Of a stretch of 64,000 nt of DNA, positions 11,627 through 64,000 are shown in pieces. The number at the start of each line of letters is the position of its first letter. The first letter of the stretch is position 1. The stretch comes from Maylandia zebra (Eukaryota; Chordata; Actinopteri; Cichliformes; Cichlidae). The notes beneath the pieces were generated by a model, which was not told the origin of the DNA, searched no databases, and worked only from the letters and a program-made list of their open reading frames with translations. Made by a program: the position numbers and the translations under genes. Where the stretch lies: assembly GCF_041146795.1 (NCBI RefSeq), contig NC_135177.1, forward strand, positions 24,092,560 to 24,156,559, in the 5' to 3' direction.

Positions 11627-12254
11627 ATGCTGTGCCCTGTGCTGCTTTGTGCCGCTCTGCTCCTCCTGACTCCCCTGGAGATCACAGAGGCTCGTGCTTT
11701 GCATCCTTCTCCTGATGCTGTGCAGGTACAGGAGGAGATTGGAGTGGATGTGGAGGGCTGGATTAAAAAAAAAAAAAAAATAGATTGAGGAGAATTCAGA
11801 GTGAATCAAGGAGAGTCCACAAAGGATGGGAGGCAGAACAGGAAAGAATAAGCAGAGAGAGAGTAATGAAATGTATCACTGATTGAATTATTGTCCCTTG
11901 TATACTCCCCGACAATTAAATTTCATCATCTTCTCCTTCTTTTTTTCCACTGTGCAGTTTGTGGAGCAATTTCTGGAACGCTACAATGACCTTCTGACCC
12001 TTGACGACCTGGAGAACATGCTCAACAGCCAAGCAGAGGAGCAGTCCACCCTCTCCTCCGGGTCCAAAGCTGCTGAATACCCCAAATGGGCTGATGCACA
12101 AACTCAGCCCGAGACCCCCTGGCTCCGTCTGCTGAAGGGCACCCTGGCCAACCAAAAGCGAGCAGAACCGGACCGGTCACGGAGGGGGTGGAATCGGGGA
12201 TGCTTTGGCCTGAAATTGGATCGGATCGGGTCTATGAGTGGACTGGGCTGTTAG
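11627..12254 (+). CDS. nppc: C-type natriuretic peptide precursor (CNP-1-like)
   Basis: Prepro-hormone of 131 aa; the mature peptide activates a guanylyl cyclase receptor (NPR-B type). Exon 1 is 11627-11725 (33 codons) and exon 2 is 11958-12254, ending in TGT TAG. The start lies in GCTGCCATGC and opens a signal peptide (MLCPVLLCAALLLL). The last 22 residues are the mature hormone: GWNRG, then a 17-residue ring C-FGLKLDRIGSMSGLG-C. The chain ends exactly at the second cysteine with no tail, the hallmark of CNP as opposed to ANP or BNP. The furin-type site RSRR lies directly before the mature peptide. GWNR at the N-terminus is what I recall for fish CNP-1; CNP-1 versus the other fish CNPs rests on that and on position. 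The gene lies between ncapd2 and gapdh. Confidence 0.95.
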
Positions 12255-18792: not shown

Positions 18793-22119
<3,327 letters not shown>

Positions 22120-24902: not shown

Positions 24903-37287
<12,385 letters not shown>

Positions 37288-37790
37288 CACATGCTCACTC
37301 CAGCGTTAACAGCGGCTGTGGTCACACGATCTCAAGTGCATCCATGACCACACCGATACAATGGGCGCTGACTACGTGACTACGGCAACACCATGTTTAC
37401 GTACTTGTTTGACGAGTCATTTCTTTTTCTGGACACTTTGGAAAGTGAGATGGAACTGACTGAGCGAGGAAGTCTGTCATTGTGCTTCATTTTGTGACGA
37501 TTCAGTAGGTTGAAGGACCTAGGGTCAGCTGACTGTAAGTGTGGTTACAGGAAGACATAGCATGACTTATTCATTCTACACAAACGGACACGAGCTAAAA
37601 CAAGGATAATGTAAGCGTCATAAACTCCTCTCTGATCTGCTTTTATGGTCACTGAAGCTCTAAAAGTTAAAGTCACATTTACAGGAATATTTCCAGGAAA
37701 CAATGAAGCTTCAGTCTTAAAATAATATAACACAGAATTTTTGAATTTGAATCTTTATCCACACATGTAGGTTTAATAAAAAGCCGCGAG
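37288..37790 (+). terminator. iffo1: iffo1 3' UTR with candidate polyadenylation signal
   Basis: The first AATAAA after the stop codon is at 37775-37780. A further AATAAA follows near 37993, so the true 3' end is uncertain. Confidence 0.5.
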
Positions 37791-40700
37791 AGAGCATTTT
37801 AGTGGCTTGCAGCTGCATTAACTGTTCACCATATCTCTTGTATAAACGATAATAGAATCACAGGCAAAGCAAACCTGAGGCAATAAATGAAAAGTTAAAG
37901 ATACAGAAGAAAATCAGAAAAACGCAAACACTATGTGCATTTTTACTGGAGCAACAGAGTTGAGTCTTTGACTACCAACAGGCCTCCTTCCAATAAAGTG
38001 AGGTGTTTTCTGGATAACAAGGGAAATGTATGTAAAAACCTTAAAACTTCAAGTCATTTCAAAGTGATTTGAAAAAATAACTAAAATCCTGAGAAGTTGC
38101 TCTTCAGATCTGTGGTGTTTTGTGTTCCTAAGCCTTAAATCAGATGATATAAGAGTTGCTTTCTATTCTTCTCCTGAAGCCCTTGATCAAATATAACAGG
38201 AGTTAATTGGGAAAGTTGAATGTCACTCCTCTCACTCGGATGCCTCCAGTTCAGAAAGTGTACATGTGTTCGCTTTGAGGACCACATTGTTTGTGGGCCT
38301 CAAAATGGCAGTAATATGTTGGCTATAAGTTAAACTGTGGGCCTCCTGGCAGATTTTTCATCAGGATTTTTATGACAAATTCTTAAATATTTTGAAAAAA
38401 CGTAAAAATTTGTAGTAGTCGTCTGACCACTGAGCTGGTCGATTTGGTGCAAGAAGACTGTTTCTATAATGATGTGGGAGAAGATATGCATTGACAAAGA
38501 ACAATTATACAGAATTTAGTCAAGGATAACATGGCAAAAGCAAACAGTCCAAACAATGAAATCAAGATTTTGGCCTCCGTAACCTGCGAGCTACATCTGT
38601 GACACAGCAGAGGCTGATTTGTTCCTTGATTCATTTGGACACATTCGTTTACCCTAAATCTGTAAATAAACGGTCGAATTAGCTTATATTTCCTGTGCAG
38701 GTGCAGAAACTTTTAACAATAATACAACATAGTCACCGTAGTAAGTCGCATGTCTATATCACCATCGTTTTGGTGTCAGCCTTAAGCAGACCAAACCACC
38801 CTGCTGTTCACAGAGAGTTCACACATTGATCATCTTGATGATGTTGGAGCTCCAATCATTTCATATGAGTCACATCTGAAATCCCACGAACACCGTAGTC
38901 TGCTTTGAACTTTGTAGTTTTCGGGAAAGGTGAGGGAGCAATGACCACAGTGTTGGGAGGTTGTTTTTTAGTTTTGAACGTAACCGTAGTCTCTGTCTGT
39001 TGCACTTCAAAGACCAACTAAAGTACTGGATGATAGAGTCACTCAAGGGTCATGTAAGTGTTGTTAATAATCTTTATTTTTTTAGCAGTAATGCTTATTA
39101 TTATAGATTAGAGTGAAGGCTGTATCTTTGAGTAAAGCTGCATGGTTGAGCAGAATCACTTTGAGGATAGTGGAAAAACAAAAAGGCTGTCATGTAATAA
39201 TGTAAGTTAGTCACCGAGTGCCAAAATAATATTTAGATTGTGAATCAACAGGAAATTGCTTAAAAAAAGACTAAACATAGCTGCTGAAGCTATTTCACCA
39301 AGGTGCTTGATGTATAGAAGTGAACCTACGTTTTGCACATAGAAGAGCAAAGCAAAACTGTACCATAAGAAACAATCAGTAGTCTAACCTGAAAAACAAA
39401 ATATGCTGACCTGCTGAAAATGGATGATTTGTTCTATTTAGTTTTCCTTTCCTTATGAAAAAAAATGTCGTTGGTGAACGCATCACATACCTCATTTTTA
39501 CTTTAGTTATGTCTATTGGCATATTTAACCTACATGTTCCTTCGTAGGAAAACACATACAGCGCACAGCTGTCAGGTGGACGCCCCCTCCATCACAACTC
39601 TATTATCAGACACTGTTTTAAATGGTGTTGTTTCTTCTGTGTAGATGAACCAGGTGAAATAACTTGTTTCAGCAGTAGGGTGCAGTTTAGCTCATGCATG
39701 TGTTGCAGTTGTAATCAGCTGAGCGCCATTCTGAAAAGATCAGGCGTCGGGTGCATTGTTAAAGGCATAAAACACCGTCTCTCTTTGTACCGTTACACTT
39801 TAACGCACTGAGTGAATTTATGTGTATGCATGTGCCAGTGTGTATGTTTATGGGCCTTCTGTCTGACCAGCGAGTGTTTTTAAGAAGACTCTTACCGGGG
39901 TAGATGCACAACATTAAGAAGGATCAAACTGTAAAATCTCATATTGTCTCAAGCAGTTCAACGCCAACAAAATGACTTTTGTGTTTTCATGGTGACCACG
40001 TGAAAAATTCAGAATCTGATGATCATCTAGGTTTTCTTTCCCAGTTACGCTGTTTCTTTATGAGTGTATGCCAAGTAAAGTCAGTGTAAAAATATCTCAG
40101 TTCAGGAAGATGAACGGAAATGCAAATGCTTTTGTGAAATGATGGCTTTGATATTATATGCATAACAGAAATATAGCTTTGAATATATATTCGTGTTTAA
40201 AGAACAGAGCTGAATGAAGACTCCACGGTGGAAATGATGGCAGATGAGAGCAAAAGAGTTTTTGTTTTCTGTCTTCACACAACAGAAAAACTTATTTACC
40301 AAATTTTTTAAAGAAAATTATTCCACAGAGTCAGAACTATTGATCTAAAATCCAAATGTGTGACTTTGCAGCTTTAAACATCAAGAAAAAGTAACTTTGG
40401 CTGGAAAAGGCTTCACTGCAGAGCTGCTGTATGTAATATGTCGAGAGACGCTGGATGAATGAATAAAAGATGCAACTGAGCAACAAGGCGTGCAGTTTTT
40501 TCCCTGTATTAAGTTCAACAGTTTTTTTCTAACAGTTATCTGAAGGCACTTTATACCAAGATAAAGACCCTGAAGCATTACAGATAAAAAAAAAATGAAA
40601 GAGAGAATCATCCAAATCTCGTTAAGTAACCACTTCATGAAATTTTGGAGAAAGACAAACTCTTTCTCTTTACTCTTCCTATCCATCTTAACATTAAACT

Positions 40701-41327
40701 CAAAACCTAAAAGAAGTGTTCCTCTGTTAACACCTTTATCCTTTATACTTGATTATCCTTATTTCAAATTTTACATTTTACATGGAAAAACAGGGATTTT
40801 TTCCAGGACTTCAATTTGGAAATATAAAGCGCTTAAAACACTTTAAAACCTACAAATATTTAACATGGAAAATGTTGCCATATTAATATATAATCAACTC
40901 AACAGTTGGCTTACAGCTAAATTAAACAGTAAAAGAAAAACAAATGTACTTAAATATGTTTGTGAAGGTTTCCAGACTTGATGCATAAATGTTAGTCAGT
41001 TTTAGCAGGCTGGTAGGGGTCGGAGTGTGGGAAGCAGCAATATGTAACCAGGCAAAGAAAGAATAACACAGATGTTCAGCAAGATGACAGAGAAAGATAC
41101 AAAAAGACAAAAGGGTGGGGCACACTTTGAGGAAGTTAGCAAAAACAACAGAAGTTGAACAACAGGAACATGATACTGAAGGAAAAGATTTCCTTTTTCT
41201 TTTAATTTTGACATTTATTGTTTTATTGTAATAACCTTTATTTGTGATATTAACTTGGTAGTTGCGTTAGCTTTTATAGATTTTGATCCTTGGCCTTTTC
41301 GCAGTAGTGTTCACATCTGTCCACAGA

Positions 41328-42342
41328 ATGGGATTGGTGCAATACTCTGTGGCCCTCCTGATGTTATCCACACAGTTGGTGCTCAGCTTTCCCACAGTAA
41401 GACTTTTTTTCTTTAACCCAGTCGCCTTAATTATTGCATACACTTTTATCAAATAAGAAAAATAGTTGACATGAGTGAATGTGGCATGGATGATGAGTTA
41501 ATGAGGACTTTTTCATTTTAGTGATTTATATCTATCTGTGTTGACAGCCAAAGAACACCTACAACATTGGTGGGAGAGAGTGTAAATATTGTCCTGCAGG
41601 TAGGAAATGTGTGATAACTTGATGTGAGCTTCTATTAATATTTTTAAAATTCTGTTCATCAGTTTACATTTACTCAGAAATATGAATCTCGTTTAGGTAC
41701 CGTGGTGTGAAGTATGGTTCTTTCTTGTCTGTGTGTTGTTTTGATTTTCTGCATTGATGAAAAATGACGCAGGCTGAGTTCGTGCAGTATGACCACATCC
41801 TTCACCGATACTCACTCCGAGTCAGCAAGTCTTTCCTCTTGTTTTTTCTGTTCTCACAGGTATGTATCAGAGTGATTGTACAACATGTGAACACTGTCCT
41901 GCTGGAAGTTACACAACTGACTTGAACTATGAAGATGAATGCCATCTCTGCTTTGGAGACTGCAACCCTAGTAAAGAAAGTTTTCATTTCCACCTTTAAT
42001 GATTTCATCAGGATTTTGATATACCCGTGATCTCTGGGTTTCTATAAAAAGCTGATAAACCATTAATAGTAACTCCACATGTACTGTGATGACTACTCCA
42101 TATAATAATCTCTATTTCACTCTTTCTCAGAGTTGCATCTTAAAGTGGTTCAGAACTGCACCAGTACGTCTGATATTAAATGTGACTGCGAGGATGGTTT
42201 TAGATGCATCAGGTGGGCCCATGACAAAAAGAACTGCTTGTCTTGTGAGAAGATGCCAGACCCAACCCCAACCAGTAAGTACCGAGAAGAACACTTTGAA
42301 TTCTCATGTCAGATAAGCTCAAACCAACAGTGGGCAAAATGA
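41328..42342 (+). CDS. Truncated cd27-like duplicate: signal peptide plus cysteine-rich domains, no membrane exon
   Basis: Four exons copy the first four of the complete receptor downstream: 41328-41396, 41548-41599, 41860-41970 and 42131-42274, all with intact donors and acceptors. If exon 4 is read through its donor, the frame closes with TGA at 42340-42342, giving a 147-aa secreted protein: signal peptide (MGLVQYSVALLML...), TNFR cysteine-rich modules (CEHCPAGSY, CDCEDGFRC) and a short unrelated tail. Only five residues differ from the complete copy over 125 (T to N, R to L, F to L, M to I, T to A). No transmembrane or cytoplasmic exon follows before unit B. It could be a soluble decoy, an alternative 5' end spliced to the downstream exon 5 at 52987, or an unexpressed relic. 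Confidence 0.55.
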
Positions 42343-42648
42343 CCAGTGTCAAAGCAAACAACTTTACCGCAGCCATTAAAAAACAAAAGAAAAAAAATAG
42401 CTGACAGGATCTGTAATCTTAGCTCTGGCTCCCGTTATTATCAGATCATTCTGAGAACAGGTTCCTCTCAAGTTGCCATGAATATGCAAAACTTGTCTAA
42501 TATGAACAGGTTTGAAAATATTCCTGGAAATCTTTATGCTCTCTAAAAAATGCAATGCCATCAAGCTGACATGAAAGTGTCACAAAGGAAATGCTTTTCT
42601 ATGTTCTAGAGTACTCTTTATAATAATCTCTATTTCACTCTTTCTCAG

Positions 42649-42775
42649 AGTTTCATTTTAAAGTGGTTCAGAACTACACCAGTACGTCTGATATGAAATG
42701 TGACTGCGAGGATGGTTTTAGATGCATCAGGTGGACCCAAGAGGGAAACTGAGTGTCTCGTGAGAAGATGCCAAA
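42649..42775 (+). pseudogene. Dead third copy of cd27-like exon 4
   Basis: Preceded by the same TTTCTCAG acceptor. It reads K-FHFKVVQN-Y-TSTSDMKCDC..., then stops in frame (TGA at 42750-42752) after RWTQEGN. A conserved Cys has become Tyr, and the splice donor is lost. It continues without a break into sequence like that downstream of iffo1 (see 42786-43370), so it belongs to a separate rearranged duplication unit. Confidence 0.8.
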
Positions 42776-42785
42776 CAACTAAAAT

Positions 42786-43370
42786 ACAAATGCTTTAGTG
42801 AAATCAGTGTATGATTCCTGCAATGTTGTAAGCATGAAAGTGTGTTTAAAGAGCTCAATGAAGTCTGTCCACAGTTACACACTAAAAAGAAAAAGCAAAA
42901 ACTTTTGTTAAGCCACAGAAATCTGTTTGCTTTATTTAGCTTTTTAGGGGAAATGATGGCAGAGAAAAGGCAAAAGTGTTTTTGATTTCTGTCTTCCCAC
43001 ATCATGAAGCCCTACTTCAAAATATTTTTAGTTTAGAAAATTTCACCACACAATCTGATGACAATCGTGTACAACTCCAAATGTTTGACTTCACTGCTTT
43101 AAACATTAGGAAAAAGTAATTGTGGCCAAAAAGCGTCACTGCAGAGCGGCTGCATGCAATATGTCAAGAAAGCTGAATGAATAAAAGATGCAAATGAGCA
43201 AAAACAACACGCGCAGTTATTATTTGTAAAAACCAACATTTCCCTGTATTACAATCAGATGAGTTTTAAATATGGTCAAACACCAACAACAGTCATCTGG
43301 AGGCACTTTAATTCAAGATAAACACCTTACAATATTATAAATAGAAAGCCAAATACACAGTCATCCTTTT
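42786..43370 (+). repeat. Relic of a third duplication unit
   Basis: This stretch matches 40116-40620 (unit A) and in part 48175-48560 (unit B). Shared phrases include CAAATGCTTT, GATGGCAGA, GTTTTTG-TTTCTGTCTTC and GAATGAATAAAAGATGCAA. It joins directly to the dead exon 4 copy, showing that a third unit existed and collapsed. Confidence 0.7.
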
Positions 43371-45370: not shown

Positions 45371-45863
45371 ACTACATCATCATACACTCCATGCTTAAAA
45401 AATAGGAATACTATGATTGCAAAGCTTCATACAGAATTTTCATTATGTTTTATATCTCTGACAGGTTAAACCACAATAAATACTAGTTGGTTTCATAACC
45501 GCAGTGATTTGCCTGTTGTTTAAAATCCCGTGTGATCTTGTGATATCGCGAGTCCAGGCAACTAACCACTCTTGCTAGCACTTATCGCTTCATCTCAACA
45601 AGAATACGTTTAACGAGTGTTAAGTTGTTGAATTTAATGGAGATTGCATATGTTTTAATTACATTCACCACAGAAACATAAAATAATTTCTGTTCAAATT
45701 ACAAGTCAGACTCTTGTAAATGTGATGACTACCCAATTTCACTTTTGGAGTGCAGGGGGCAGGACTTAATAAATGAACGCTAGTGGAATAATGTGTTAAG
45801 CAGGTATTTGTTCCACGAATTTGTTTAATTTGGAACAAATCTAATTGTGTTTACTGACTCTAG

Positions 45864-45985
45864 CTGGAAGTGGCCACAGCTAAAGGGACATGAATCCACC
45901 CCTGAACAAGTAGTACATGGAGATGTGCTCGATGAAGAGAGGCCCGGATGTTCAGATGGAGACTCATCACGCAGAGCAGAGACAG
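45864..45985 (+). pseudogene. Dead duplicate of iffo1 exon 8
   Basis: Matches 36485-36615: CTGGAAGTGGCCACAGCTAA, then ATGGAGATGTGCTCGATGAA and GAGAGGCCCGGATGTTCAGA. It carries small deletions (loss of TGCAGGAGA), an insertion creating an in-frame TAG in AACAAGTAGTACATGG, and a donor changed from GT to GC. It cannot be used as an exon. Confidence 0.9.
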
Positions 45986-48861
45986 GCGCGCACACACTGG
46001 CTTGACATTATTCTTTATTTGTTCATCTATCCACTTTTCTTTGGTAACACTGGTAGCTACATTAAATATGTAATTTATAATTTATTTAAATAAAGAAACA
46101 TTTCTTAAATGGGTAATAGGACATTACAGTGTACAACAGGTGTATGCATTTTTAATGAAGATTTATTAAAGTTATTAACTTTAAAAACATATTTTTATAT
46201 AATTTTATCTTTTTTCCCCATGTATTTTCATTTATAACTTCTTTATACGGCTGATACAAATGACTAAAGTTGAAGACCCTCAACTGACTAAATGTGCTTA
46301 CAGGAAAGCATTGCGTGACTCATTCATTATACACAAACCTTTTTTTACTGCCTTGCATCTGCATTTATAGTTCACCTCCTCTCTGTATTTGAAATAAATT
46401 AATTACATACAAAGCAATCTTAACTCATAACTAATTAATTTACTAAGCAAAAGATAAAAGAAAAGCAGAAAACTCCAAATATTATGTGTCAGACTAACAT
46501 CATACCACCTTCTGTACAGCGGTGCTGTTCAGAGAATATATACATATATGTCAGCTTATCAGTGAGAAATATAGAAAATGGATTTCTCCATACTGTAGAA
46601 AATTTTAGAAAGGTTGGGGCACCAGTAGTGTCACCTAGAACATTTCACATGAAACACATCTGAAATACCACGAACACTGGAGTGTTTGAGGTTTGTAGTT
46701 TTGAGGACCTCCGAGAAGGTGATGAAAACGAAGGAAGTACGTTTTTTTCTTTTTTCTGTTTTAAATTTAAAGTAGATTGTGAATCAACAGGAAATCGCTT
46801 AAAAAACTAAATATAGATGCTGAAGCTATTTCACCAAGGTATAGAATTGAACCTACGTTTTGCACATGGAAAAGAAGCGCAAAGCAAAACTGTACCATAA
46901 GAAACAATCAGCAGTATAACCTATAAAATAAAATATGCTGACCTACTCCAAATGGACTATTACATTTGTTCTATCTAGATTTCCTTTCCTTATGAAAAAA
47001 GTGTTGCCGGTGAACACATCACATACCTCATTTTTGAGCACCTTTAAACTCATGCATGTTTCTACACAGGAAGACATACAGCAGACAGCTGTCATGTGGA
47101 CACCACCTCCATCACACCTCTATTATTATACAAGGCAAAAACTTTATTAATCTCGAGGGACTCATTGCAATAAGAATAGAAACATTAGCAGAAAAAGAAA
47201 AACTGTGTGGTGTCAGCAGAAATATATACAAAACACAACAAAATGAAGCTCAACCATCAAAGAGCTACGATCAGAATCTACAGATAATCCCAACAGCATA
47301 AAATATAAACATTAATGTGAATGTGCGTAGAAAGTGGCACAGTGTTAATAATAAAAGTAAAAAGGCCTGTAAAGGGAACAGTATTGTATTTTCTATATAT
47401 TCATTCTGCCTGTAGGCAATTGGACATGCATAATTTGGCTTGTCATTTAATATTACACTAATATATGTTGCTGTGGAACTAGGCAGCTCATGCTCTCCTT
47501 CAAGATATAATGCATTTTGGGGTCAACTTGAAATAAAGGCAGATGTGGAATGTACATGTGAGGTCAGAGGTCAAATGTAACATGATATTTTGACGCAAAC
47601 TATAATGCGATATTCGGAATTCCCGTATACCAGGACCATAGTTTACTAAATGTTGGCAATACAAAAAAAAGGTTTTGAAGGTTAAAGGCATTTTATCACA
47701 GTTTGACCTCATTTCACTTTTGAAGAAGAGGTCAGAGGTCCAAAGTAACGTTATATTTAGAATCCCCGTATATCATTCCCATTATGCCTATGTGATGTCA
47801 CTAGTTGGAAATATCTCTATATAGTATTTGTATCGATTTGTAACCATATTTATCAGTTTTTAGAAAACACATCTTTTATCTTAAACCTTTTCAGTGCATC
47901 TGTCCTATTTTTTTTTTTTTTGGGGGGGGGGGGCCTCTAGCATAACTAAGCAATTTAAGAAGACTTTTACTAGTTCAGATGCACAGGAGAAGAATGAAAC
48001 TCACTAACAGTCTAAAGCAGTTGCCTAAAATGACAAATGGAATGAGCTGTTTTTTGATGGAGACCACCAGTAAAATTGAGTCAGATATTTTTCCAGTAGT
48101 ACTCTTTCTTTATGAGTGTGTGCTTAGAAAAGTCTATTTAAAATTTTCACTTCAGGAAGATCGACAACTGAAATGCAAATGCTTTGGTGAAATGACTGTA
48201 TGATGGCTTTGATATTGCGTATGTAAATGAAATATAGTCTTGAATATATACTTTTCTTTCAAATCTAGAGATAAATCAAGATTCTCCAGTTACAACCTGG
48301 AAAGAAACTAAAAAAAGACACTGATTAAGACAAAGTGAGACATTTGCTGTATTTGGATATCCAGTGGAAATGATGTCGTAAGGACAAAAAAACAAGCAAA
48401 AAAAACCCTGATAAAGACTTTGAGTTGATATGTGTTGAACTGTTTTGCTTGCTGAATTCCTCCAAGAATTAAGTTGGAAAAGCTTTAGAACCCTTTTAAA
48501 AAAAATTTGATTGATGAACAACAAGGACAAAAGTGTTTAGGTACATCAAGATAAATCACTTTGGGCTAAAAAGAGTCATTGCAGAAATGCTGTGTTTCAT
48601 ATGTCAATATGTTACTTGGCCACCAGCCAAGTGTGTAGTAACCACGCGTTGCCCATCTGGGTATTCCCATGTTTTGACATAGGTAGGGTAGTACATTCCT
48701 GTGGAAAACTTCAGATCTTCCAACATAGACTGGTATCCTGCTGACATGGAATTCCAAACCGCCTTTGCAGTGCACTCCAAATCTACACTCCTTTGTACAG
48801 GTGCAATGGGTAAGGATGACCAGTCAGAGTGACAATAAATGGGCTTTATAGCATTCCCCAC

Positions 48862-49135
48862 AGTGCCAAATCACAACAGCAGTCGCCTCAAGGTGCTTTA
48901 TATTGTAAGGTAGACCCTACAATAATGCATACAGAGAAAAACCCAACAATCATATGACCAAAGCAAAGCAAGCACTTTGGCAACAGTGGGAAGGAAAAAC
49001 TCCCTTTTAACAGGAAGAAACCTCCGGCAGAACCAGGTTTAGGGAGGGGCGGGGCCATCTGCCACGCCCAGTTGTTGTGGGAGGAGGAAGACAGGACAAA
49101 AGGCACGCTGTGGACGAGAGCCAGAGATACTAACA
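48862..49135 (-). mobile_element. L2-like LINE 3' end, truncated (antisense)
   Basis: Contains GCCAAATCACAAC, CACTTTGGCAACAGTGGGAA, GGAAAAACTCCCTTTTAACA and GGAAGAAACCTCCGGCAGAA, the same 3' UTR seen in the larger copy at 53718-54603. Only this part is present. Confidence 0.75.
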
Positions 49136-49284
49136 ATAGTTTATAGAAAGCAGTTGATAGAAATTGAACGATCCAACTTATTCCTCATGTCCAAACATTT
49201 AAAGACAGCATAGAGGAAAACAAAACTCCAACTGAGGGGAATGAAAGTGAGAAAGAAAAGCATTTTCTGTCCACCTTAGTATTA

Positions 49285-49450
49285 AACTTAAATGTGCTTC
49301 TTTTTCTTTTTCCTCTTCTTTTTGCTTGTCCCTTTAGGGGTCACCACAGCATAGCATCCGTCTCAAACTTGCTCTGTTCTTAACTTCTTCCTTCTCTGTC
49401 ACACCAACACTCTGCACGTCCTTACTCTTGATATTTTCGCAGGTTTGAAT
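49285..49450 (-). mobile_element. RTE-like LINE 3' tail (antisense)
   Basis: CTTTTTGCTTGTCCCTTTAG followed by GGGTCACCACAGCATAGCAT is the inverted 3' tail of the family whose coding end is at 13685-13985. This insertion is specific to duplication unit B. Confidence 0.65.
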
Positions 49451-49937
49451 TGGCTAAGATTTTATGTCAGATGCTCTTTCTCATACAACTTAAGTGGGGA
49501 CAGGACATGAAGGTAACTGGGTTTTGAAAGAAGTCCTGTTACGTTCAACTAAACTACTTAAAGACTACAAGAACCCACTTGAAAAAGGTAAGTGTCAACA
49601 TATCAATAGTTAGCAAACTCATCCATTACCTGGTCTAAAGCTGAGTTTAAACAGAATAAAAGAAATAAAATGTGCTTAAATATGATAAAAAAAGAAGGAG
49701 GCATTCAAATCTAAAATGAAAGGTAAAGCGTCACTTTCAAACAAACGATCTGCTCATCTGTTTTTTCAAATAAAGAGTTAGAATAGTTACTCTGGCTATT
49801 TATTCCTCATGAGGTGTCGCAGTTTATATGGAAAATGATTAGGCTTTAAGGCTTTGACGTGTAAATGTTAGTCAGTTTTAGCTGCCTGCTAGAGAACAGA
49901 GTGTGGGGGAAACAGGAAGACAGGAAGATATAACCAG

Positions 49938-50277
49938 GTAAGGAAACAATGACACAGAATCAGTAGCGTGAGTAAAACGACACACACACACACAGAGAGA
50001 GAGAGAGAGTAGAAAGAGTGAGGCACATCTTGAGGAAGTTAGCAAAACAACAGAAGTAGAACAAAAGGCACATCATACTGAAGGTAAAAATAATTGTTTT
50101 CTTTCTTTCTTTCTTTCTTTTTTTCTTTCTTTCTTTCTTTTACAATTATCGTTTTATTGTAATAGTCTTTATTTGTGATACTAACTTGGTAGTTGCGTTA
50201 GCTTTTATAGATTTTGATCCTTGTCCTTTTCGCAGTGGTGTTTGTAGACGATTGGCAGCTTTACATCTGTCCACAGA
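49938..50277 (+). other. Inferred 5' UTR intron and second non-coding segment of the cd27-like gene
   Basis: ACCAG|GTAAGG at 49937/49938 and TTTTCGCAG|TGG at 50235/50236 would remove a 298-bp intron and leave a 42-bp 5' UTR before the ATG. A TTTC microsatellite (about 50098-50140) lies inside. The inference rests on splice-site quality and on conservation of the acceptor in unit A, where the matching donor is GC. Confidence 0.35.
50098..50140 (+). repeat. TTTC microsatellite
   Basis: Run of TTTC units with one TTTTTC interruption, upstream of the cd27-like start codon. Confidence 0.9.
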
Positions 50278-52554
50278 ATGGGATTGGTGCAATACTCTGT
50301 GGCCCTCCTGATGTTATCCACACAGTTGGTGCTCAGCTTTCCCACAGTAAGACTTTGTAACCCATTCGCCTTAATTACTGCATACACTTTTATCAAATAA
50401 GACAAATAGTTGACATGAGTGAATGTGGCATGGATGATGAGTTAATGAGGACTTTTTCATTTTAGTGATTAATATCTATCTGTGTTGACAGCCAAAGAAC
50501 ACCTACACCATTGGTGGGAGAGAGTGTAAATATTGTCCTGCAGGTAGGAAATGTGTGATAACTTGATGTGAGCTTCTATTAATATTTTTAAAATTCTGCT
50601 GTCTGCTTGTCAGTTTAAACTTACTCAGAATTATTATTAAAAATGAATCTCTATTTTGTACAGTGGTGTGAAGTATGTTTTTTTCTGTCTATGCATTGTT
50701 TTTTTTTCTGCATTGATGAAAAATGACGCAGACTGAGCTTGTGCAGTATGACCACATCCTTCATTAATATGCATTCTGAGTGTGCAGGCTGTCTGCTCAC
50801 ACTGCTTGTCGTCAAGTTGTTTGCATTGGTTTCTTTCTGTTCTTACAGGTATGTATCAGAGTGATTGTACAACATGTGAACACTGTCCTGCTGGAAGTTA
50901 CACAACTGACTTGAACTATGAAGATGAATGCCATCGCTGCTTTGGAGACTGCAACCCTAGTAAAGAAACTATGAGTCATTTCTACCTTTAATGATTTCAT
51001 CAGGATCATGCTATACCCGTGATCTCTGGTTTTCTATAAAGAGCTGATAAACCATTAATAGTAACTCCACATGTACTGAGATGAATAGTCTCTAAAATAA
51101 TCTCTATTTCACTCTTTCTCAGAGTTTCATCTTAAAGTGGTTCAGAACTGCACCAGTACGTCTGATATGAAATGTGACTGCGAGGATGGTTTTAGATGCA
51201 TCAGGTGGACCCATGACAAAAAGAACTGCTTGTCTTGTGAGAAGATGCCAGACCCAACCCCAACCAGTAAGTACCGAGAAGAACACTTTGAATTCTCATG
51301 TCAGATAAGCTCAAACCAACAGTGGGCCTTATGGCAAACAAAACAACTTCTAAAGCTGAGAAAATGACCAGTGTCAAAGCAAACAACTTTACCGCAGCCA
51401 TTAAAAAACAAAAGAAAAAAAAATAGCTGACAGGATATGTAAACTTAGCTCTGGCTCCCGTTATTATCAGATCATTCTGAGAACAGGTTCCTCTCAAGTT
51501 GCCATGAATATGCAAAACTTGTCTAATATGAACAGGTTTGAAAATATTCCTGGAAATCTTTATGCTCTCTAAAAAATGCAATGCCATCAAGCTGACATGA
51601 AAGTGTCACAAAGGACACTTTTCTATGTTCTAAGTATATTTTATGAAGAACCAGCAGAAAATAATCATTCTAATCTGCAGCACTCCAACGCTCTGCACAG
51701 ATTGGTAGATCATAGTTTTGCCTGCTTCTTGATTTATTCAAATTGCTTCCATAGCCTTGTCTTCTAAAAAAACCAAACAACCCAAAACCCTAACTAGCTG
51801 TATAATACTTGATCATTCTTGCAGAGTGCCAAACAGCAGGGCTGTGTTTGGCCCCGACAAAATGCAAGCGAGTTATTAAAAATAAATAGTGACATATTTT
51901 TAAACATGTCACTGCTGACCAAGTAGTATTTCTGGCACACCCACCACTGCAGAGCACGGTGTCACACTGCACACTGTACAGAGTAAATTTGATGGTCAAA
52001 GATGCAGCACATTTTAAATCAAAATTGTAGAATTTCAGTTGAAGGAGGCTGCAGTAAAGGCTTACCCGAGCATCTTAAAGGAGGAAACACAGGATTTGGT
52101 GATGTCCATGACTTCTAGACTTAGTCATTTTTCATCCAAGTATTAAAAACAGTTCTTATATTTAATGTTAGTTCTTTAGTTTGTTCAGTTAATTTTGAAA
52201 CTCTGAACAGGGGGACTGAAAATGTCTGTATTTTTTTAAAACCCCTGTGGGAAAAAAACCTGAAAGGCTGCCCTTCAGTCACGTCATGTTTGATTTAAAA
52301 TCCACTGTTGTGGTGTGCAGATGCAAAACTGCAAAAACTGTTTCACTGTCCAACAAAATATCAAACTAAGTGTGTAAAAGAGGATGGATCTGAAAAATGA
52401 AGCCAGTGTAGAAGTGGCTTAAATGTGGATTCTTTGTAACAGCCAGCAGGGGGCGACTCCCCTACAAGTAATAAACAAACGGGGTTAAACTAAAATGAAT
52501 TTGTTTTCCCAGTGCACCCAGGTTATCAAGTTCTGAGGAACAGTTTTTGTTTGT

Positions 52555-52635
<81 letters not shown>

Positions 52636-55600
52636 CATGTATGTGTTTGTGTCTGTCTGTGTCTGTCTGTGTGTGGTGTGGTGGTGTTGGTGGGGGGATT
52701 TCACGTTCTTAATGATAAAGGTAAAACAATGACAGGAAATAGGGAGAGAGAAAAACTGGAACTGTATGCAACAAATCCAACCTAGGACAATACAGTTCAT
52801 GACCAGCGCCTTCACCCCTGTGCCAGCAGGACAGCCCAGGGGTCGCCTTTTACCCTTGTTTAATATGAAGTGGAAAAATGTACTTATCCACATTGTAAAG
52901 TAACTCAGGCAGGTCTGTGAGACTGTGTTTGAGGTTTTTTCTTCCTCTGAAGTCTGAAACCAATCCTGTGATGGTTTATTCTCTAGAAGCAGCAGCTACA
53001 GAGATCTCAGTCAGAGATAAACACACGCCTTTCTCAGTTTCCTCCGGACATACCAGCACTTCTCCCAAACCCTGCCAATCTCCAGGGTAAGCCTCAAATT
53101 TCCTTTGATACAGTAAATACTGAATACTTCACTGAATCTCTGTGTTACATGAAGCTGTCACAGATTTTGATACAAGTATTGTAGACTACCCTCATCACAT
53201 GGGGAGGGGAGGCGGGGGGGGGTCACATATTTGAAATACTTAACATTTTATTCCTTCACACAGGTGTCACCCAACGAAAGAGCCGAATCCCACGGGAGGT
53301 GAGACTTTATGACTGTGTATGTGGATGAAAGGGAGTGTTTGGAGAGTATTTACTGTTTTCATTTGAGCGGAAACTGAAAAGTTATGGGAGGTTATGTCAG
53401 TTAGAGCTGGTCCACCACATTATTTTAATTCATGCTCCTCCGAGGACTTTGTTGAGTACCAAAATGCCACCAGTGCCCTTTGCAGGACCTATTAGGTCCT
53501 ACATAATTCAGCGAGGATGTTCATGGTGCCCTTGAGATAAACTGTATTTTTCATTATCACATTGGTTCTCCAGCTTTTTCTAATGTGCTTAGTTCACATG
53601 TTGGAAAAAGTTCATGCCATACAGAATGAACCGTAATTAAGCGTTAAGAATAAAAAGGTGAAGTTTAGTAAAATGTGTAGTAAATAAACTTGTTTTATGG
53701 TCTTTGATTGTTGAGCTGAATTCAATTCAATTCAATTTCAATTCAATTTTATTTATATAGCGCCAAATCACAACATAAGTCGCGTCAAGGCGCTTCATAG
53801 ATACAGAGAAAAACCCAACAATCATATGACCCCCTATGAGCAAGCACTTTGGCAACAGTGGGAAGGAAAAACTCCCTTTTAACAGGAAGAAACCTCCGGC
53901 AGAACCAGGCTCAGGGAGGAGCGGCCATCTGCTACGACCGGTTGGGGTGAGAGAAGGAAGACAGGATAAAGACATGCTGTGAAAGAGAGACAGAGGTTAA
54001 TAACAGATATGATTCAATGCAGAGAGGTCTGTTAATACATAGTGAGTGAGAAAGGTGACTGGAAAGGAAAAACTCAATGCATCATGGGAATCCCCCGGCA
54101 GCCTATTGCAGCATAACTAAGGGAGGATTCAGGGTCACCTGGTCCAGCCCTAACTATATGCTTTAGCAAAAAGGAAAGTTTTAAGCCTAATCTTGAAAGT
54201 AGAGATAGTGTCTGTCTCCTGAATCCAAACTGGAAGCTGGTTCCACAGAAGAGGGGCCTGAAAACTGAAGGCTCTCCCTCCCATTCTACTTTTAAATACT
54301 CTAGGAACTACAAGTAGGCCTGCAGAGCGAGAGCGAAGTGCTCTAATAGGGTGATACGGTACTACAAGGTCATTAAGATAAGATGGGGCCTGATTATTTA
54401 AGACCTTGTATGTGAGGAGCAGGATTTTGAATTCAATTCTGGATCTAACAGGAAGCCAATGAAGGGAAGCCAAAACAGGAGAAATATGCTCTCTTTCTAG
54501 TCCATGTCAGGACTCTTGCTGCAGCATTTTGGATTAGCTGAAGGCTTTTCAGTGAGTTTTTTGGACATCCTGATAATAATGAATTACAGTAGGCAGCTAA
54601 ACTTCTTTTAAGGTTCTTGTAGATGTTTCAGCTCTCATCTGAGAGGTTTATTCAGACGTATAGAGGTCAAAGTCCTTCATAAACCTAAAAACAAGCCCAG
54701 TTTCCTTCAACTTCAGTGCTTAAAACATGGATGACTCAGACCCCCACATTGACGTTTATTTAAAAATATTTTCACCTGGTTGTCCATGTTCCAGCTGCAG
54801 TGTCACTGTGGCTTGTCAGCAGGGACTACCCCACAGTTTGAGAACCAACGCTCTAGTGTGATCATCAGGTGAAACTGCTACTTAGTCAAAATACCTTTAT
54901 CATCAAATATCTACTGAACCGATACCATAATAAGAGCTGCAGTGTCATGAGTATTTTAGCATTTAGCTAAAGCCTGACTCTACCAAAGTGCAGCCTCACC
55001 AAACCACTAGTGACTGAAACTGTAAAAGCCACATTTGCACTGCAGGAACTTTCCCCAAGTCCAAGGACCCTTTGGAGAAACTCACATTACCAACACAGGG
55101 TCTGAAACAAAGAGGCAACAGACAAGTCTGTTTCATTAGTTGTACATTTATAAAATAAATTTTTATTGCAGAATGTGGCAGCAATAGAATAATAACACTA
55201 CTGGTGTACTGTCAGTTGTCTATAAGGCTTTTTTATGCAGTTCTGTGCATCACTGGATACAAACTCTCCTGGGAAAGCTTACTCGTACAACCAAACAGAA
55301 GGATGATAGCACTCTTGTTTTCTCTGGTAGCTACTAGCAGCATATCTTTGAAACAATAGGTGTTACTCTAACAGGGAAGAGATAACTGTGTCCTATTGTC
55401 TGATAAAGGGCAAAAGGTCCGAGGGAGATTGATAGAAAGTGAAGGTTAGACGGAAACACAGGAGCGAACAACATTCACTTACTGGAGAGCTCCGGAAATC
55501 AGCTCTGAAAACAAAACAATAGGCTGTTTTAAAATGGGAAGTGGTCCAGACGAGGGTGGGGGCAGAAATGGTGTCTAAGTTGTCTATTGCCAGTTATGAA

Positions 55601-57201: not shown

Positions 57202-60200
57202 CAGAAAGCTTAATTCCTCCCATATGCTAATTATATACAGGGATGAGTGATGGGCATGGAATGGTGATCTTTGCATTGGACTCTTTGCTCCACCGATGAA
57301 AGAGGCATGAACCCACAGGCATTGTTTAGAAGGTTGACACATTTCTTGTCAAACCATTTTATTGCAATCAGACCTTCATCAGACCTGTAATAACAGGCTC
57401 CATGGCCCTTCTTCATCAGGTCTTTGTCTGCCATCAGGGGAGCTCCACCGGTCATACAGTACCAATGCACCTGACACCCAAGGAGGTGTGCAAGTTCTGG
57501 ACCAAGGTGAAACTCGTGAAGAGCTGAGGCTCTTTTATGGGTTTGCATAGTGTTTTTTTTTTTTTACAACCCTGGTCCTTAGAGGGAGCTTCTGCTCCTT
57601 TTCACTGAGGGGAGCATTGAAGAATGTAGAGCCCCTTTGATACAGCAGCAAGTTGTGGATGATGCCAGATGAACTTGCTTGGCAGAACAATTTAAAGCCC
57701 CACTCATCTGGTTTGTTGGCAATATACTGGTGGAGAGTGCCAGCCCTGTTGGCTTCTTATGAAACCATGACCTCAAACACACTGTGGTTGAAGGTGGATG
57801 GTATCACGAGTATCATGCCACAGGACCATGTGATTTTTAGCCATATAATTGTTTAGCGTCCATATAGTAGCCCAATTGTTCAACATGAAATTATAATTTT
57901 GACAACTTAGTAATATTAATTTACCAGCTACTCTAATTTGGTTAAAAGGTAATCAGTTGTGATATGTGTGATTTCCAAGTGTTATTCTTGATTTTTACAA
58001 TTTTACTAATATTAACTCAGAAAGTTACAAAAATAATTTACTGAGGAAATTATTTCATCATATTCTTGCTGTGCTAACACTTACTGTGATTTATCAATAG
58101 CAATGAATAAACAAAATGGATCTAGTGGTCTGATTCTATGGCAAATAATCAATTTTAATAACATTTAGGTTATGTTATGTTAGCACCATAAAGGGTGCGA
58201 ATGCTAACCGTTTGGTTGACCACTTTAAAAAAAAAAAAAAATTAAACATTTAATTTCACGTTTTTAATGCTGTCAAGTGACCTACATCTGTTTAGTAAGT
58301 CCTCTAACACTATCATATATCAAAAAATTATATCTTAGTTGAATCAAAAACACTCAAAATATGGTGGATGTTTTTTTGTTTCTGACCTTCTGGTTGGGAG
58401 AGGTATAAGAAGAGCCAACAGTTTCCATTCACAGTGTCTTCTGGTGGATTTTTTTGGCATTACAGATGTAAACCAATTGGTAGAAAAGACTCAACAAGGT
58501 AGGTCAATTTCAGTGAAAGTTAGATATAGGGCCCGAAAATGTGTACCAATTGGTTGAGCAGAACGCTAAAGGGTTAAGACAAAAGATGATCACTAATTTT
58601 ATAAAATGCTCTAATGCACAAGTGGTCATATTGAATGCGTTCAGTTTTATAAATATCTTGGGACATCTGTTGACCCCAAACTGAACTTTGTGTGTGGAGT
58701 TTGCATGTCCACCCCCTGCCTGTGTGGGTCTTTTCTAAATTCATTGTAGGTGTGAATGTGAGTGTGAGTGGTTGTCCTCTCTCTGTGTTAGCCTTGCAAG
58801 ACACTGTCAACCTGTCCAGGGTGTACGTGGTCTCTTACCCTGTGACAGCTGGGTTCACCCCCACCCTGAATCAGATAACCAGAAATAAATGGATGGATGG
58901 GATTTACTGAGTCTGTTTTGTCCTCTTGGTTACTGTCATGGTTTGGATATTTATCTGTGAAGAACAAAAACTCACTCTAATTCGTTAGCCACAAATGAAC
59001 CCAGGATCCCTGTTGGCTACAAGACAGTTACTGTATAGCGATTGACAGGTTTTATTTTTTGTTTTGACGACATGCACTTTTTGTATTTTGACTTTCAGTT
59101 TCCATGTAGATAAAGGCCTCTGGTCCCAAAGTACAGAACAACAGTGCTTAAAAGCAGCTTTGTTCCAGCAGCCGTCACTCAGATGAACAAGCAGCTTTGT
59201 TATTCTACATTTATCCATCCAGCAATCGCTGTAGACCATGCCAACTACCGTAGCATGTGAGGCGGTGTACACCAAGCACAGGTTGCCAATTTGTTGCAAG
59301 GCTAATGCAGAGAGGGACAAAAAAAAGCATTCACACTCAGATTCACACCTATAGCCAATTTAGAAACACCTCCACCCTCAGTGTGTGCATGTTTTTTGGA
59401 CTGTGGGAGGAAGCCGGAGTCAACCCACAAAGACACGGAGCAAACTCTACACAGAAAGGCCCCGGCCAGACGGTGGATTCAAACCCAGAACCTTTTGTCG
59501 TGAGGCAAAAGTGCTAATCGGGAATTTATTATTATTTTTCTTGTCTATCGTCCATTTTGAAAATGTGCATGTGAGGATGGATGACTTCCCTGCTGCACAC
59601 TGAATCTACTTATGGGTACAGACAAAGCACTTTGATCCTGAACTCCACGGTCGAGGAGCCCAGGTTTCAAAAAGAAAACAGGGAAAATCCCGATAATCCT
59701 GGCTGGATTTTATAAAATGAGTTTTAAATATTGAAAGAGTATGTTTTAGGAAATTAAATACAGCTTTTTGACACTGCACATAAGTGTCATGTTCATGCAG
59801 CCAACAGTGTTAATCTAATTAATCATCTATGGAAAGAACTGGACTGAACTCTCAGCTGGGAGAAAGATAAGCAATCAAAAGCAACATTTTGCTTCTGTTA
59901 AATATAGAATGAAAAACTCTCTCTAGATTTTTATGTACAAAGCTGCTAACGCTTTCATGTGTTACACTGCAAAAGAGAGATTTCAGGCACAGCACTAATC
60001 ATCCTTTTATTTCTCCTATAGGTCATGCCAACCGTTACCTGGCAGCTATTTTCATTCCAGTGGGTGTCCTTGCAACTTTGGCCCTTCTCACCTTGTTCTG
60101 TGTCTGTCGTCCAAGAGATGAGACATATATAAGGCAAAGTAAGATGTTTACGTCCAGGAAGTGCTCATTTTCTGTCGCCTCTGTCAAACTCTGTGATTGA

Positions 60201-61086
60201 ATCAGTTCTGAGAAACAATAAACGTTCAACAAGATCAGTGTGGAAATTACTGTGAATTTAGGGTTATCATGCCCTTTGCTGATATGCTCTTCACTGCTTT
60301 TGCTAAGTCATGTTGAGTCACCACTCATGAAATGTGAAAACACACCAGTTTCCTATTACTCATTATTCAATCTACTGTTTTTTCAGCTATTGCAAAGCTC
60401 TGGAATGAGGTACAAGTCTAATGAACTCTCATGTGTTTACATAGATTACATCCTTTTTCCTTTGTTTGCGCCAAATTCATGGTTGTGTTCTCCTGTAGGA
60501 AGGGCGAGGTGCTTCTCACAAGTCAAGGGAGCCAACTCATCAGTTCCCCAGAGACTCATTCAGTACAAAGCAGCAGCCCTCAACACCTTCAGCAGCCAAT
60601 CTTGGTACAGCTGAGTAAAATGAAGACTTCTTATGTGAAATGCTTGACTCACTCGAGAAAAAATATGCTAGAAACAAAAAGATGCAGCTGTGATACCGTT
60701 ATGAGTCCGAGTTGCACTTAGCTGTCCTGTTCTGTAGATTATAGGTTAATGTATCTCTGTAGGTTGCTAAAAACATCCTTTGATGCATTCTCTGCTCTTG
60801 TTTTCTCCCTGTAGGTCCAGTCCATGTGCACAATCCAGGCACAGTCATCTTTAGCTTGCTCAGTCAATTTACGGGTCAAGTCGGGCCAACGACCGAATGC
60901 GGGAAGACGGCTGAGAGAGCGAGGAGAGAGGAAGAGGATGAGAGAAACTGTCCAGTGTTTCATCCTGCATCTTCTCCCAGCATTCATCTCTCTGAGGAGG
61001 AGAGGAGTGGAGAGAATGACACCATTTTCTTCCCTTCCCAGGAGCAGGGGAAAGACTCCCACATGTCGAAAGAGGAGATCCTATAA
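50278..61086 (+). CDS. TNF receptor superfamily member, CD27-like, complete
   Basis: Type I membrane receptor of 342 aa. Exons: 50278-50346, 50492-50543, 50849-50959, 51123-51266, 52987-53086, 53264-53298, 60022-60138, 60387-60409, 60499-60604 and 60815-61086; 1029 nt, all borders GT-AG. Residues 1-23 are a signal peptide; 24-125 hold TNFR cysteine-rich modules (CEHCPAGSY, CHRCFGDC, KCDCEDGFRC) with an N-glycosylation site in QNCTST. A Ser/Thr/Pro stalk follows. The transmembrane helix is at about 176-199 (IPVGVLATLALLTLFCVC). The tail has no death domain. It ends with an acidic segment and PSQE (326-329), fitting the TRAF2-type motif (P/S/A/T)x(Q/E)E, like PIQE of human CD27. The NCTxT...CxCxxGxxC...C...P-P pattern and synteny favour CD27; 4-1BB-like is the alternative. 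Confidence 0.85.
52557..52631 (+). repeat. GT microsatellite
   Basis: About 37 GT units, with a looser GT-rich region continuing to about 52690. It lies in the intron before cd27-like exon 5. Confidence 0.95.
53718..54603 (-). mobile_element. L2-like LINE 3' end with reverse-transcriptase C-terminus (antisense)
   Basis: The minus-strand frame 54150-54473 reads LHWLPVRSRIEFKILLLTYK, then APSYLNDLVVPY, RSAGLLVVPR, APLLWNQLP and FKIRLKTFLF. This is the conserved C-terminal region of L2/Maui-type LINE polymerase proteins. Its 3' UTR runs to 53718, ending in ATTTATATAG-CGCCAAATCAC and TTCAATTCAATT units. It is truncated at the 5' side. Confidence 0.85.
56809..57106 (+). mobile_element. tRNA-derived SINE, copy 3 (nested in piggyBac)
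   Basis: Starts GGGCGATCGTGCCTCAAGAG, B box GGTTCGAGCCC, core TTGTGTCCTTGGGCAAGACA, tail AAAGCGCTATATAAATCCAA. It closely matches copy 2 at 28725 but ends in TCCATT and an ATT microsatellite. Confidence 0.88.
57104..57201 (+). repeat. ATT microsatellite at SINE 3' end
   Basis: About 32 ATT units with one ACT interruption, directly continuing the SINE tail. This is a typical place for microsatellite birth. Confidence 0.95.
57231..57548 (-). pseudogene. piggyBac (PGBD) transposase fragment
   Basis: A 105-codon open frame. IKWFDKKCVNLLNNACG corresponds to the conserved VxWxDNKxVxLxST block of piggyBac transposases, which lies near the last catalytic Asp. The upstream part of the enzyme lies at higher coordinates in another frame. 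It is a transposon relic, not a host gene. Confidence 0.7.
58687..58900 (+). mobile_element. Second-family SINE, copy 2, 5' truncated
   Basis: Contains TGTGTGGAGTTTGCATGTCC, GTAGGTGTGAATGTGAGTGT, GTGTTAGCCTTGCAAGACAC, ACCTGTCCAGGGTGTACGTG and a GGATGGATGG end. The tRNA head is missing. Confidence 0.75.
59210..59519 (-). mobile_element. Second-family SINE, copy 3 (antisense, near full length)
   Basis: On the minus strand it runs from GATTAGCACTTTTGCCTCAC through a degenerate B box, TAGAGTTTGCTCCGTGTC and CGGCTTCCTCCCACAGTCC to GGTGTGAATCTGAGTGTG. It lies about 300 bp from a copy in the opposite direction. Confidence 0.75.
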
Positions 61087-61406: not shown

Positions 61407-61841
61407 TTAAATGAAAAAGAAATAGAAGAAAAAATGTACACAGAACATCCACATGTGATATTGAAAAGCTGGCTACAAAAGCAGCTAATTATGTCTGCAC
61501 ATATATGTAGATATACATGAAATATGTTTAACTTTATGTACTATAGTACATACTTTCCTTTCACTGCCACAATGTCCCCTCTGTCTTATCAGTTCCAAGA
61601 TTTTTACCCACCACAATTTTATACACTTCAAAGTCACAGATGCCAAAATGATCATCTGTCCTCTCAGGAAACAGCAACAGTTTCAAACTTTCCACCTTCT
61701 GGCATTCCACTGATCAGCACGGCGCGGAGTGCCTTTTAGCTCCATTTAAATGTCCAAAAGCAGTGACGAATGTTTTCCATCTGGGATGTGCCACCGAGTG
61801 TCTTGTTAGGTTCTCGCTCCTCCAAATTCCAGATCTGGTCT

Positions 61842-62297
61842 TTAACACATAGGTTGGTCACATTTCCCGCACACTTCCTGGACGGGCTTGGACACTTCTT
61901 CATCACATGCAGGTTGTGTGGCAGGTTTTTCAGCCAAGAAGTACCCTAAGCAGCAAGAAATGACGGGATGGTTTTAATAAGAATTTAAACATTTGGGGGT
62001 ATTTATAACACAAAAGTTCTAAGAAAAATATTAAGTGATTTAAAAGAAATCTACTAACCGTGAGTGAACCTAATCCAGACTAAAAATGGCTTGATTTTTG
62101 TCACAACAACCAGTGCAATTCCTGTACACAGGAGGGCAATTATCACCAGGAACCACACCGTATCTATAATAACACATGAGAGAGTTAGTTTCCATAATTT
62201 ACATCAGTTCAATAATTTCACAGGCAATACAATTTGGCTACTTTACCTGCAATCGGTTTAGTGGCGAGCCTGGTGGTGGTAACATCAGGTGTCGCCA
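61842..62297 (-). CDS. Second TNF receptor superfamily gene, 3' exons only (convergent)
   Basis: Three minus-strand exons in order: 62297-62247 (stalk, ATPDVTTTRLATKPIA), 62163-62059 (transmembrane, TVWFLVIIALLCTGIALVVV then TKIKPFLVWIRFTH) and 61945-61842 (cytoplasmic tail, TAA at 61844-61842). Acceptors CCTCTAG, TTATAG and GCTTAG and donors GTAAAG and GTTAGT keep one frame. The short tail contains KPVQEVCGKC; PVQE fits the TRAF2-type motif, as in CD40. A possible extra 18-nt stalk exon at 63013-62996 (EESTDT) fits the phase. Cysteine-rich exons would lie upstream, beyond the recognised part or window end. The family call rests on the stalk, helix and TRAF motif; LTBR, TNFRSF9 or CD40-like remain open. 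Confidence 0.6.
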
Positions 62298-64000
62298 CTA
62301 GAGGGAAACATAAAAAAAAGAGAACCTTATAAGCTCACTGCAGGCATTATTAGTTCGATGACAAGATGACACTATTGTGGCTTGGATTTGTCAGTGAGCT
62401 CACTCTTTTGTCCCTAATGTTTAACTTATTTCATCATGTGTTTGTGTGTGTGTGTGTGTTTGAATGTGTGTGTCCTTTCTCCACGGTTACTACAGAAGAG
62501 GCAAACAGTTACAAGAACATGCAAATAGCTTCCAAGCATTATTAACAGCTCATTTGTTTGGATTATTTTTAGTCATGTAACAGTTTCAGCTGAATCAGAA
62601 ACATTTTAGGGATTCTGACTATGACCTGTCCACATTACTGTATGTAGGCAGGATTACAGTACAGGAAAACACATGCTACAACTAGGGCCTCTACAGTGAC
62701 ATTTAAAAAAAGAGACACAACAGACTGTTTTGCTCACCTGCCCTCGTACAGAGCCCAGAGTGATAATAACACAGGACACGACATTAAGACTTTGAATCAG
62801 TTAACAGATTCATGTACTACACCCCTAAATCTGCCTGTCTTCTAGAACTTGTTATCATGGATTGCTACACTGTTACTGAGTTATGTTGTAGGGGGGATGG
62901 AGGCATGAAAGGAAATTTCCTTTAAGCACTGCGCAGAGCTTTGCCAGGAGGCTGTTGAGGTAGACAAGAGAAGTGCACAATTCTCACATTCTCACCTGTG
63001 TCTGTGCTCTCCTCTGTGGTTAGGTTTAGGCAACTCAAGCACTTCACATGAAGTTAGTAAATTCCCTAACCTTTGTGAAGTGCTGATGGTGCCAAAACGT
63101 AACCATAATTAAAAAAAATCTGTTTAAGCTGTAAGTTGTAAACAACATTTCTTCATTGTGTTTCATGAAAAATGCGATCCGATAACAAATATTTTATTTT
63201 TTAATTTGTTGTTGTTTTAAACACTTTTAAACACTGATGTTATCACCTCAGAGTGCATACTTGTCCCTCGCAGACACAGTGGGTTTAAGGTGGATGACAT
63301 CAGCGTTAAAGGCATCTAAACTCATTACTGGCAGACTGAAAGATGCTAAAAGGCCACATAGAGCTGACTGACCTCTGTAGGGTTGTGGGTGATGACTATC
63401 TATGATTGGGTTTCTCTAAGCAAGTCTTGACGTTAGTGCTGCTTTACAATATCCTGATGGTACTTTTGTGTTGATATCTTCTTTTCTTTGGGTTAAAATA
63501 TGCACTCAAAAAATTAGTCTTTGCCCTCATAAACACAAAATGAAACTGAAGTATATCAAATCAAAGGTTTATTCATTTAATTCATTAATCGTGATTTTTT
63601 TTTAGGGAGCTCAATGTAAGTTTCATTTGGTCAGATTCCATTAATTTGAACATTTTACGTTGTACTTACGTAACTGAATTTTTTCATGTAATCAGATTAC
63701 TTAATGCCACCACTTTGGGCATGAATATTTTTTGAGTGTGAATGTTTCCTTGTTTGTAGGTACCCCACTGGATCCAGACAAACACGCTAGTAAATGCTCT
63801 TGTGCATACATGTAAATAAACAGTTTCTTTTAACAAACTTATTACTCTGAGCTACTTTCAGTCTTGTTTTCATAAAATAAGGCATTTGAACTCATGGGTT
63901 CTCAGGAGTATTTTTAAATAAAAAAGAAGTTATATTCCCAGATGTAGTTAAATGAGTAACTTCTCATGAAAAATGAGCATTTGCTGCCCTTTTGTGGTTC
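62298..64000 (-). other. Upstream intronic region of the minus-strand TNFR gene
   Basis: No cysteine-rich exon could be identified with confidence. A minus-strand stretch near 63285-63250 reads HCVCEGQVCTL before a GT donor, reminiscent of a CxCxxGxxC module. However, the same frame has a stop just upstream with no acceptor between, so I do not call it. Confidence 0.35.

Follow-up and report, generated by a model that had tools for sequence, protein, structure and literature searches.

Why should a cichlid genome carry, about 9 kb upstream of a complete TNF-receptor gene, a second and almost identical set of its first four exons, all with open reading frames and none with a membrane part? The question is raised by a 64,000-nucleotide stretch of Maylandia zebra DNA (contig NC_135177.1, positions 24,092,560 to 24,156,559), referred to hereafter as the window, whose own coordinates are used throughout; features lie on the plus strand unless stated otherwise. 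A preliminary description, made from the sequence alone, attributed the near identity of the extra exons (copy A) to the complete gene (copy B) to selection or gene conversion, and proposed either a secreted decoy receptor or an alternative promoter. We consider it likely that A is a recently overwritten relic, that is, a fragment of an old tandem duplication whose exons were overwritten from B and which has since been under no detectable protein constraint. Copy A is probably ordinary and not a proven secreted decoy.

The window contains one complete TNF-receptor gene, B, with ten coding exons between 50278 and 61085 and a predicted product of 342 residues. Exons 1-4 (50278-50346, 50492-50543, 50849-50959 and 51123-51266) are followed by two stalk exons (52987-53086 and 53264-53298), a transmembrane exon (60022-60138) and three tail exons (60387-60409, 60499-60604 and 60815-61085), the tail ending in SKEEIL. 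Signal peptides and the transmembrane segment of B were judged by eye, and splice sites were scored with approximate matrices, so that the scores are rough. A candidate 5' UTR intron of B has its donor after 50083 (score 5.8) and its acceptor before 50236; when 41100-41330 was compared with 50017-50236, no counterparts of these sites were found in A above the score cutoffs (4 for donors), a mismatch that may mark a changed leader of A. A donor-like site of A with a score of 8.0 was seen after 41114.

Other coding features were also observed in the window. On the minus strand, open stretches at 61739-62334 encode what appears by eye to be a Thr-rich stalk, then a transmembrane segment, then a short tail containing PVQE, which we take to be a TRAF-like motif; this suggests a second type I receptor lying tail-to-tail with B, possibly another TNF receptor. 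A natriuretic peptide is encoded at 11883-12251 (Pfam ANP, E=2.6e-15), a THAP-domain match above the cutoff (E=3.4e-6) falls in the minus-strand open frame 15582-15953, and the minus-strand open frame 34244-34522 matches TBK1_ULD below the cutoff (E=1.7e-4).

The description of the receptor as CD27-like is plausible and not proven, and is retained here as a provisional label. Solved TNF receptors match B down to E=1.3e-6, and the Pfam family TNFR_c6 is matched in B with E=1.1e-5 and 26.2 bits, below the Pfam cutoff of 29.4. The label draws on the CRD3 region, for which a PDB search places CD27 antigen chains first (8ds5, E=0.0084; 7kx0, E=0.012), ahead of TNFRSF14 (0.023) by a small margin. 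The larger queries, however, score better with other receptors: TNFRSF14 comes first and CD40 close to it for the full protein, with CD27 at E=0.15, while TNFRSF14 and CD40 chains lead for the ectodomain, CD27 being absent among the 16 PDB matches of that search. As further possible points of likeness to CD27, no death-domain family occurs among the Pfam matches, and the window holds a GAPDH C-terminal domain at 21622-22116 (Pfam E=1.2e-12, above the cutoff). At 24903-25916 there is a weak match to the filament domain, whose 21.4 bits (E=2.3e-4) fall short of the cutoff of 40; the PDB offers no match but vimentin, with E values from 0.11 upwards. The latter open frame presumably resembles IFFO1. 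In human 12p13 the gene order runs CD27 ... GAPDH - IFFO1, and the GAPDH and IFFO1-like neighbours are consistent with the human CD27 neighbourhood.

The family background of fishes was considered from excerpts of published surveys. One comparison, in the part consulted, places homologues of TNFRSF14, 4-1BB and OPG in lungfish and not in teleosts, and its table lists CD70 as N/A (PMC6001812), while CD27 has served as a B-cell marker in teleost spleen according to a portion of another report (PMC8502891). The CD70-like ligand assumed in the preliminary description is doubtful in fish: an excerpt of one survey recognises no obvious fish orthologue and calls CD70 mammalian-specific (PMC7674686), and passages of a second, apparently by the same author (PMC11762692), confine it to mammals in one place and to tetrapods elsewhere, although a further sentence names the three genes, CD70 among them, in Danio.

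Copy A spans 41328-42274 and consists of exons 1-4 only. Exon 1, encoding the signal peptide, lies at 41328-41396 and is identical to B in all its 69 bases; exon 2 (41548-41599) differs from B at one of 52 bases, the cysteine-rich exon 3 (41860-41970) at one of 111, and exon 4 (42131-42274), which carries the remaining cysteine-rich modules and ends at a GTAAGT donor, at three of 144. The four exons end in phases 0, 1, 1 and 1, all are open, and all 14 cysteines of B are kept. TNFR_c6 is matched at residues 53-95 with E=2.1e-6 and 28.4 bits, just under the cutoff of 29.4. On its sequence, A has the predicted make-up of a signal peptide and cysteine-rich modules with no transmembrane segment. 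The duplicated exons, their coordinates and open frames, and the five residue differences over 125 codons thus hold on re-analysis, as do the splice sites, whose scores are identical to those of B; in both copies exons 1 and 3 have low-scoring donors (4.7 and 1.6). The absence of membrane exons behind A was likewise borne out when nine exon peptides (the 7-residue exon 8 was left out) were searched against the window by tblastn: exons 1-3 gave two strong matches each and exon 4 three, while each stalk, transmembrane or tail peptide gave a single one, no second such exon being found in the window. Reading through the exon-4 donor of A gives the 147-residue product described earlier, with its stop at 42340-42342, but such a product is not special to A, as intron retention past exon 4 of B also yields a soluble frame, of 158 residues.

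The resemblance between the two copies extends beyond the exons. A blastn self-comparison of the window found the upstream flank of A (36459-41327) to be collinear with 45840-50277 upstream of B, and chance similarity of A and B is ruled out by an 84% alignment over 40978-42621 within this longer collinear duplication. We rejected a falsely duplicated pair of haplotypes as the source of the main structure, the flank pieces being about 15-33% different and the copies lying 9 kb apart in collinear order; cross-assembly of near-identical tracts of a few hundred bases may nevertheless have occurred. Outside the window, the 125-residue peptide of B exons 1-4 gave 17 pattern matches in bacterial and archaeal contigs, none of them confirmed, and no pattern match in viral contigs, in neither of which is fish DNA expected. 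Among the papers listed by literature searches, none describes copy A in its title or the beginning of its abstract, which does not establish its absence from print.

The identity between A and B is a mosaic. Distal flank pieces are 66-78% identical (82% in one 61-bp piece), and the 5' flank next to exon 1 (40978-41327) reaches 85.5%. Within the gene, the exons agree at 371 of 376 bases, intron 1 at 140 of 145 (96.6%), intron 2 at 88.3% and intron 3 at 91.2%, whereas the start of intron 4 (42275-42589), which contains the read-through frame, agrees at 313 of 315 aligned bases (99.4%), apart from gaps of 33 bp and 1 bp. The exons are accordingly far less diverged than introns 2 and 3 taken together (5/376 versus 44/416, P=1e-8), and so is the start of intron 4 (2/315 versus 44/416 substitutions, P=1.6e-9), which diverges to a degree similar to the exons (Fisher P=0.47, with 2/310 entered). 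Intron 1 does not differ significantly from the exons (P=0.15) and differs from introns 2 and 3 (P=0.009). The earlier statement that the surrounding non-coding DNA has diverged far more than the exons therefore applies to the 5' flank and introns 2 and 3, is weak for intron 1 and fails at the start of intron 4, where intronic identity is as high as exonic. This is part of what the preliminary description itself had named as refuting its proposal, namely an intronic identity equal to the exonic one, as left by simple recent duplication without constraint. Two matching blocks, of 193 sites running from exon 4 into intron 4 (42218-42410) and of 172 sites in intron 4 (42418-42589), were reached in 0 of 5000 shuffles of the 110 mismatches over 1623 aligned sites; the shuffle ignores gaps, presupposes evenly spread divergence and on its own does not tell conversion from local constraint. 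The matching blocks at exons 1-3 (91-94 sites) are not significant singly in the same test (P 0.11-0.14).

A third, degenerate copy of exon 4 (copy C), overlooked in the preliminary description, was found by tblastn at 42649-42776, starting 375 bases past the end of exon 4 of A. Its intact acceptor scores 11.5, as does the one before A exon 4. Two changes within the first 89 bp are private to C, and one of them replaces a cysteine by tyrosine; further on come an in-frame stop at 42750-42752 and, after it, small gaps, and the exon-4 donor is lost. Joined directly to C is a piece (42775-43366) resembling the flank upstream of A and B, with 42949-43366 being 68% identical to 40230-40613 and 42775-42975 being 62% identical to 48164-48389. 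As C runs into this flank-like piece, the number of tandem units was three or more, and the DNA behind A is not empty. The AATAAA at 43180 is no more than a motif match, and the 8 kb scanned contain many of them. The idea that C is the original exon 4 of A, as old as introns 2-3, was unsupported, only two C-only changes being present in the first 89 bp.

All five nucleotide changes between the coding parts of A and B are replacements (T29N, R70L, F79L, M93I and T107A, from B to A), with no silent change at about 80 silent sites. The probability of finding no silent change is 5e-5 at the rate of intron 2, 6e-4 at that of intron 3, 0.06 at that of intron 1 and 0.6 at that of intron 4. Five replacements out of five are not unusual under neutrality (about 0.29-0.30), and therefore neither positive selection nor relaxation is demonstrated by them. 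The open frames say equally little, because the frame was still open after five neutral substitutions in 77% of simulations. With C as the reference, the first 89 bp of exon 4 hold three A-only, no B-only and two C-only changes, so that the three exon-4 differences are derived in A; those in exons 2 and 3 are not polarisable. Selective constraint on the A protein was not detected in this comparison, which has two copies only and weak power.

Purifying selection on the A protein would hold the exons alike, and the excess of divergence in introns 2 and 3 over the exons is what it predicts. Protein constraint, though, spares silent changes and removes replacements, and as the opposite is seen here it is disfavoured; because, in addition, the start of intron 4 matches B as closely as the exons do, we rejected it as the cause of exon identity and regard it as the least probable of the explanations weighed, although exon 3 taken by itself (1/111, about 23 silent sites) is compatible with constraint. 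Between the two causes first offered, selection or gene conversion, the data thus favour conversion.

The reading that we prefer, overwriting, would run as follows. A CD27-like TNF receptor gene would have been duplicated in tandem long ago, giving at least three partial units, and copy A would be a 5' fragment among these. Sequence from the complete copy B would recently have replaced the exons of A, the start of intron 4 and perhaps a large part of intron 1, by gene conversion or local re-duplication. Either process produces a tract such as the identical one seen here, which runs past the exon-4 donor into the intron and is the main evidence for conversion. The overwriting would account for the open frames of A and its near identity to B, after which A would have drifted without detectable protein constraint; most likely A yields no product that is itself under selection, and it would at most be transcribed as by-product isoforms. 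We infer conversion as the mechanism, the direction from B to A and the lack of function alike. Among the points against overwriting, identity outside the intron-4 tract is greatest in the exons and drops in introns 2 and 3, a pattern equally expected from selection, and at the rate of intron 1 the lack of silent changes has a P of only 0.06. Partial tandem duplicates homogenised by gene conversion are a known kind. Copy A shares with them the mosaic identity, a non-coding tract included, along with the truncated unit and the degenerate extra exon, and differs from them in nothing fundamental, the receiving copy A still having open frames.

Two further explanations would give A a role in expression. 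In the one that we hold to be unlikely, though less so than the others, A would encode a soluble ectodomain, either the read-through form of 147 residues or a form of 159 residues with exon 4 spliced to C as its last exon (stop at 42750-42752, followed by the AATAAA at 43180), and this ectodomain would bind the ligand without signalling. The signal peptide, all 14 cysteines and the open frames are kept, the only recognised transmembrane exon of this gene in the window lies at 60022, and C, a possible terminal exon for A transcripts to judge from its sequence, offers an acceptor as strong as that of A exon 4 and a splicing partner nearer than exon 5, the 159-residue secreted product being one on paper. 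The exons, however, are no more conserved than intron 4, C carries a stop and has lost one cysteine, the retention product is available from B as well, and the surveys, in the parts consulted, find no CD70 orthologue in fishes save for one inconsistent sentence (PMC7674686, PMC11762692). Moreover, C is not clearly a last exon, because the GT sites after 42730, 42759 and 42839 (scores 6.0, 5.1 and 5.4) outscore some donors of B (4.7, 1.6, 2.8 and 0.6). An elaborated form, in which the locus would encode, besides the membrane receptor, a distinct secreted decoy about 159 residues long, with C as a ready-made last exon and the binding part repeatedly refreshed from the receptor by conversion, appears quite improbable. 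In the other explanation, somewhat less probable than the simple decoy, exons 1-4 of A would skip those of B and be joined to exon 5 (start at 52987), so that the resulting full receptor would differ from that of B at five residues. Exon 4 of A would fit, since its phase-1 end is the one from which exon 5 carries on the frame in B; the 5' flank adjoining exon 1 is common to both copies, and clusters of tandem variable first exons are described in a part of an earlier report (PMC1885805). Yet the intervening acceptors, that of C and those of B exons 2-4, would be competitors, and by the rough matrices the exon 5 acceptor scores 4.0 against 11.5 for C, which is also nearer. The candidate B leader donor with no A counterpart above 4, where A has its other site after 41114, counts weakly against it too.

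Known soluble immune proteins offer partial parallels. Copy A would resemble DcR3 (TNFRSF6B) in being a ligand-binding ectodomain without a membrane anchor; DcR3, however, is a soluble receptor neutralising three ligands, as stated in an excerpt (PMC5477258), whereas A is known from its sequence and shows no detectable constraint. Soluble B7-H3, found as a cDNA, is made with partial retention of intron 4 from a complete gene and, like the read-through product of A, ends in a few intron-coded residues, but the portion of the report consulted describes no duplicated exon set for it (PMC3806749).

If A is overwritten from B, as we consider likely, it would be a clear example of how conversion imitates selection when only exon identity is compared, and of how silent sites and the neighbouring intron tell the two apart. 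Should A be expressed, the locus would present a soluble antagonist encoded beside its own receptor, with conversion keeping the two alike.
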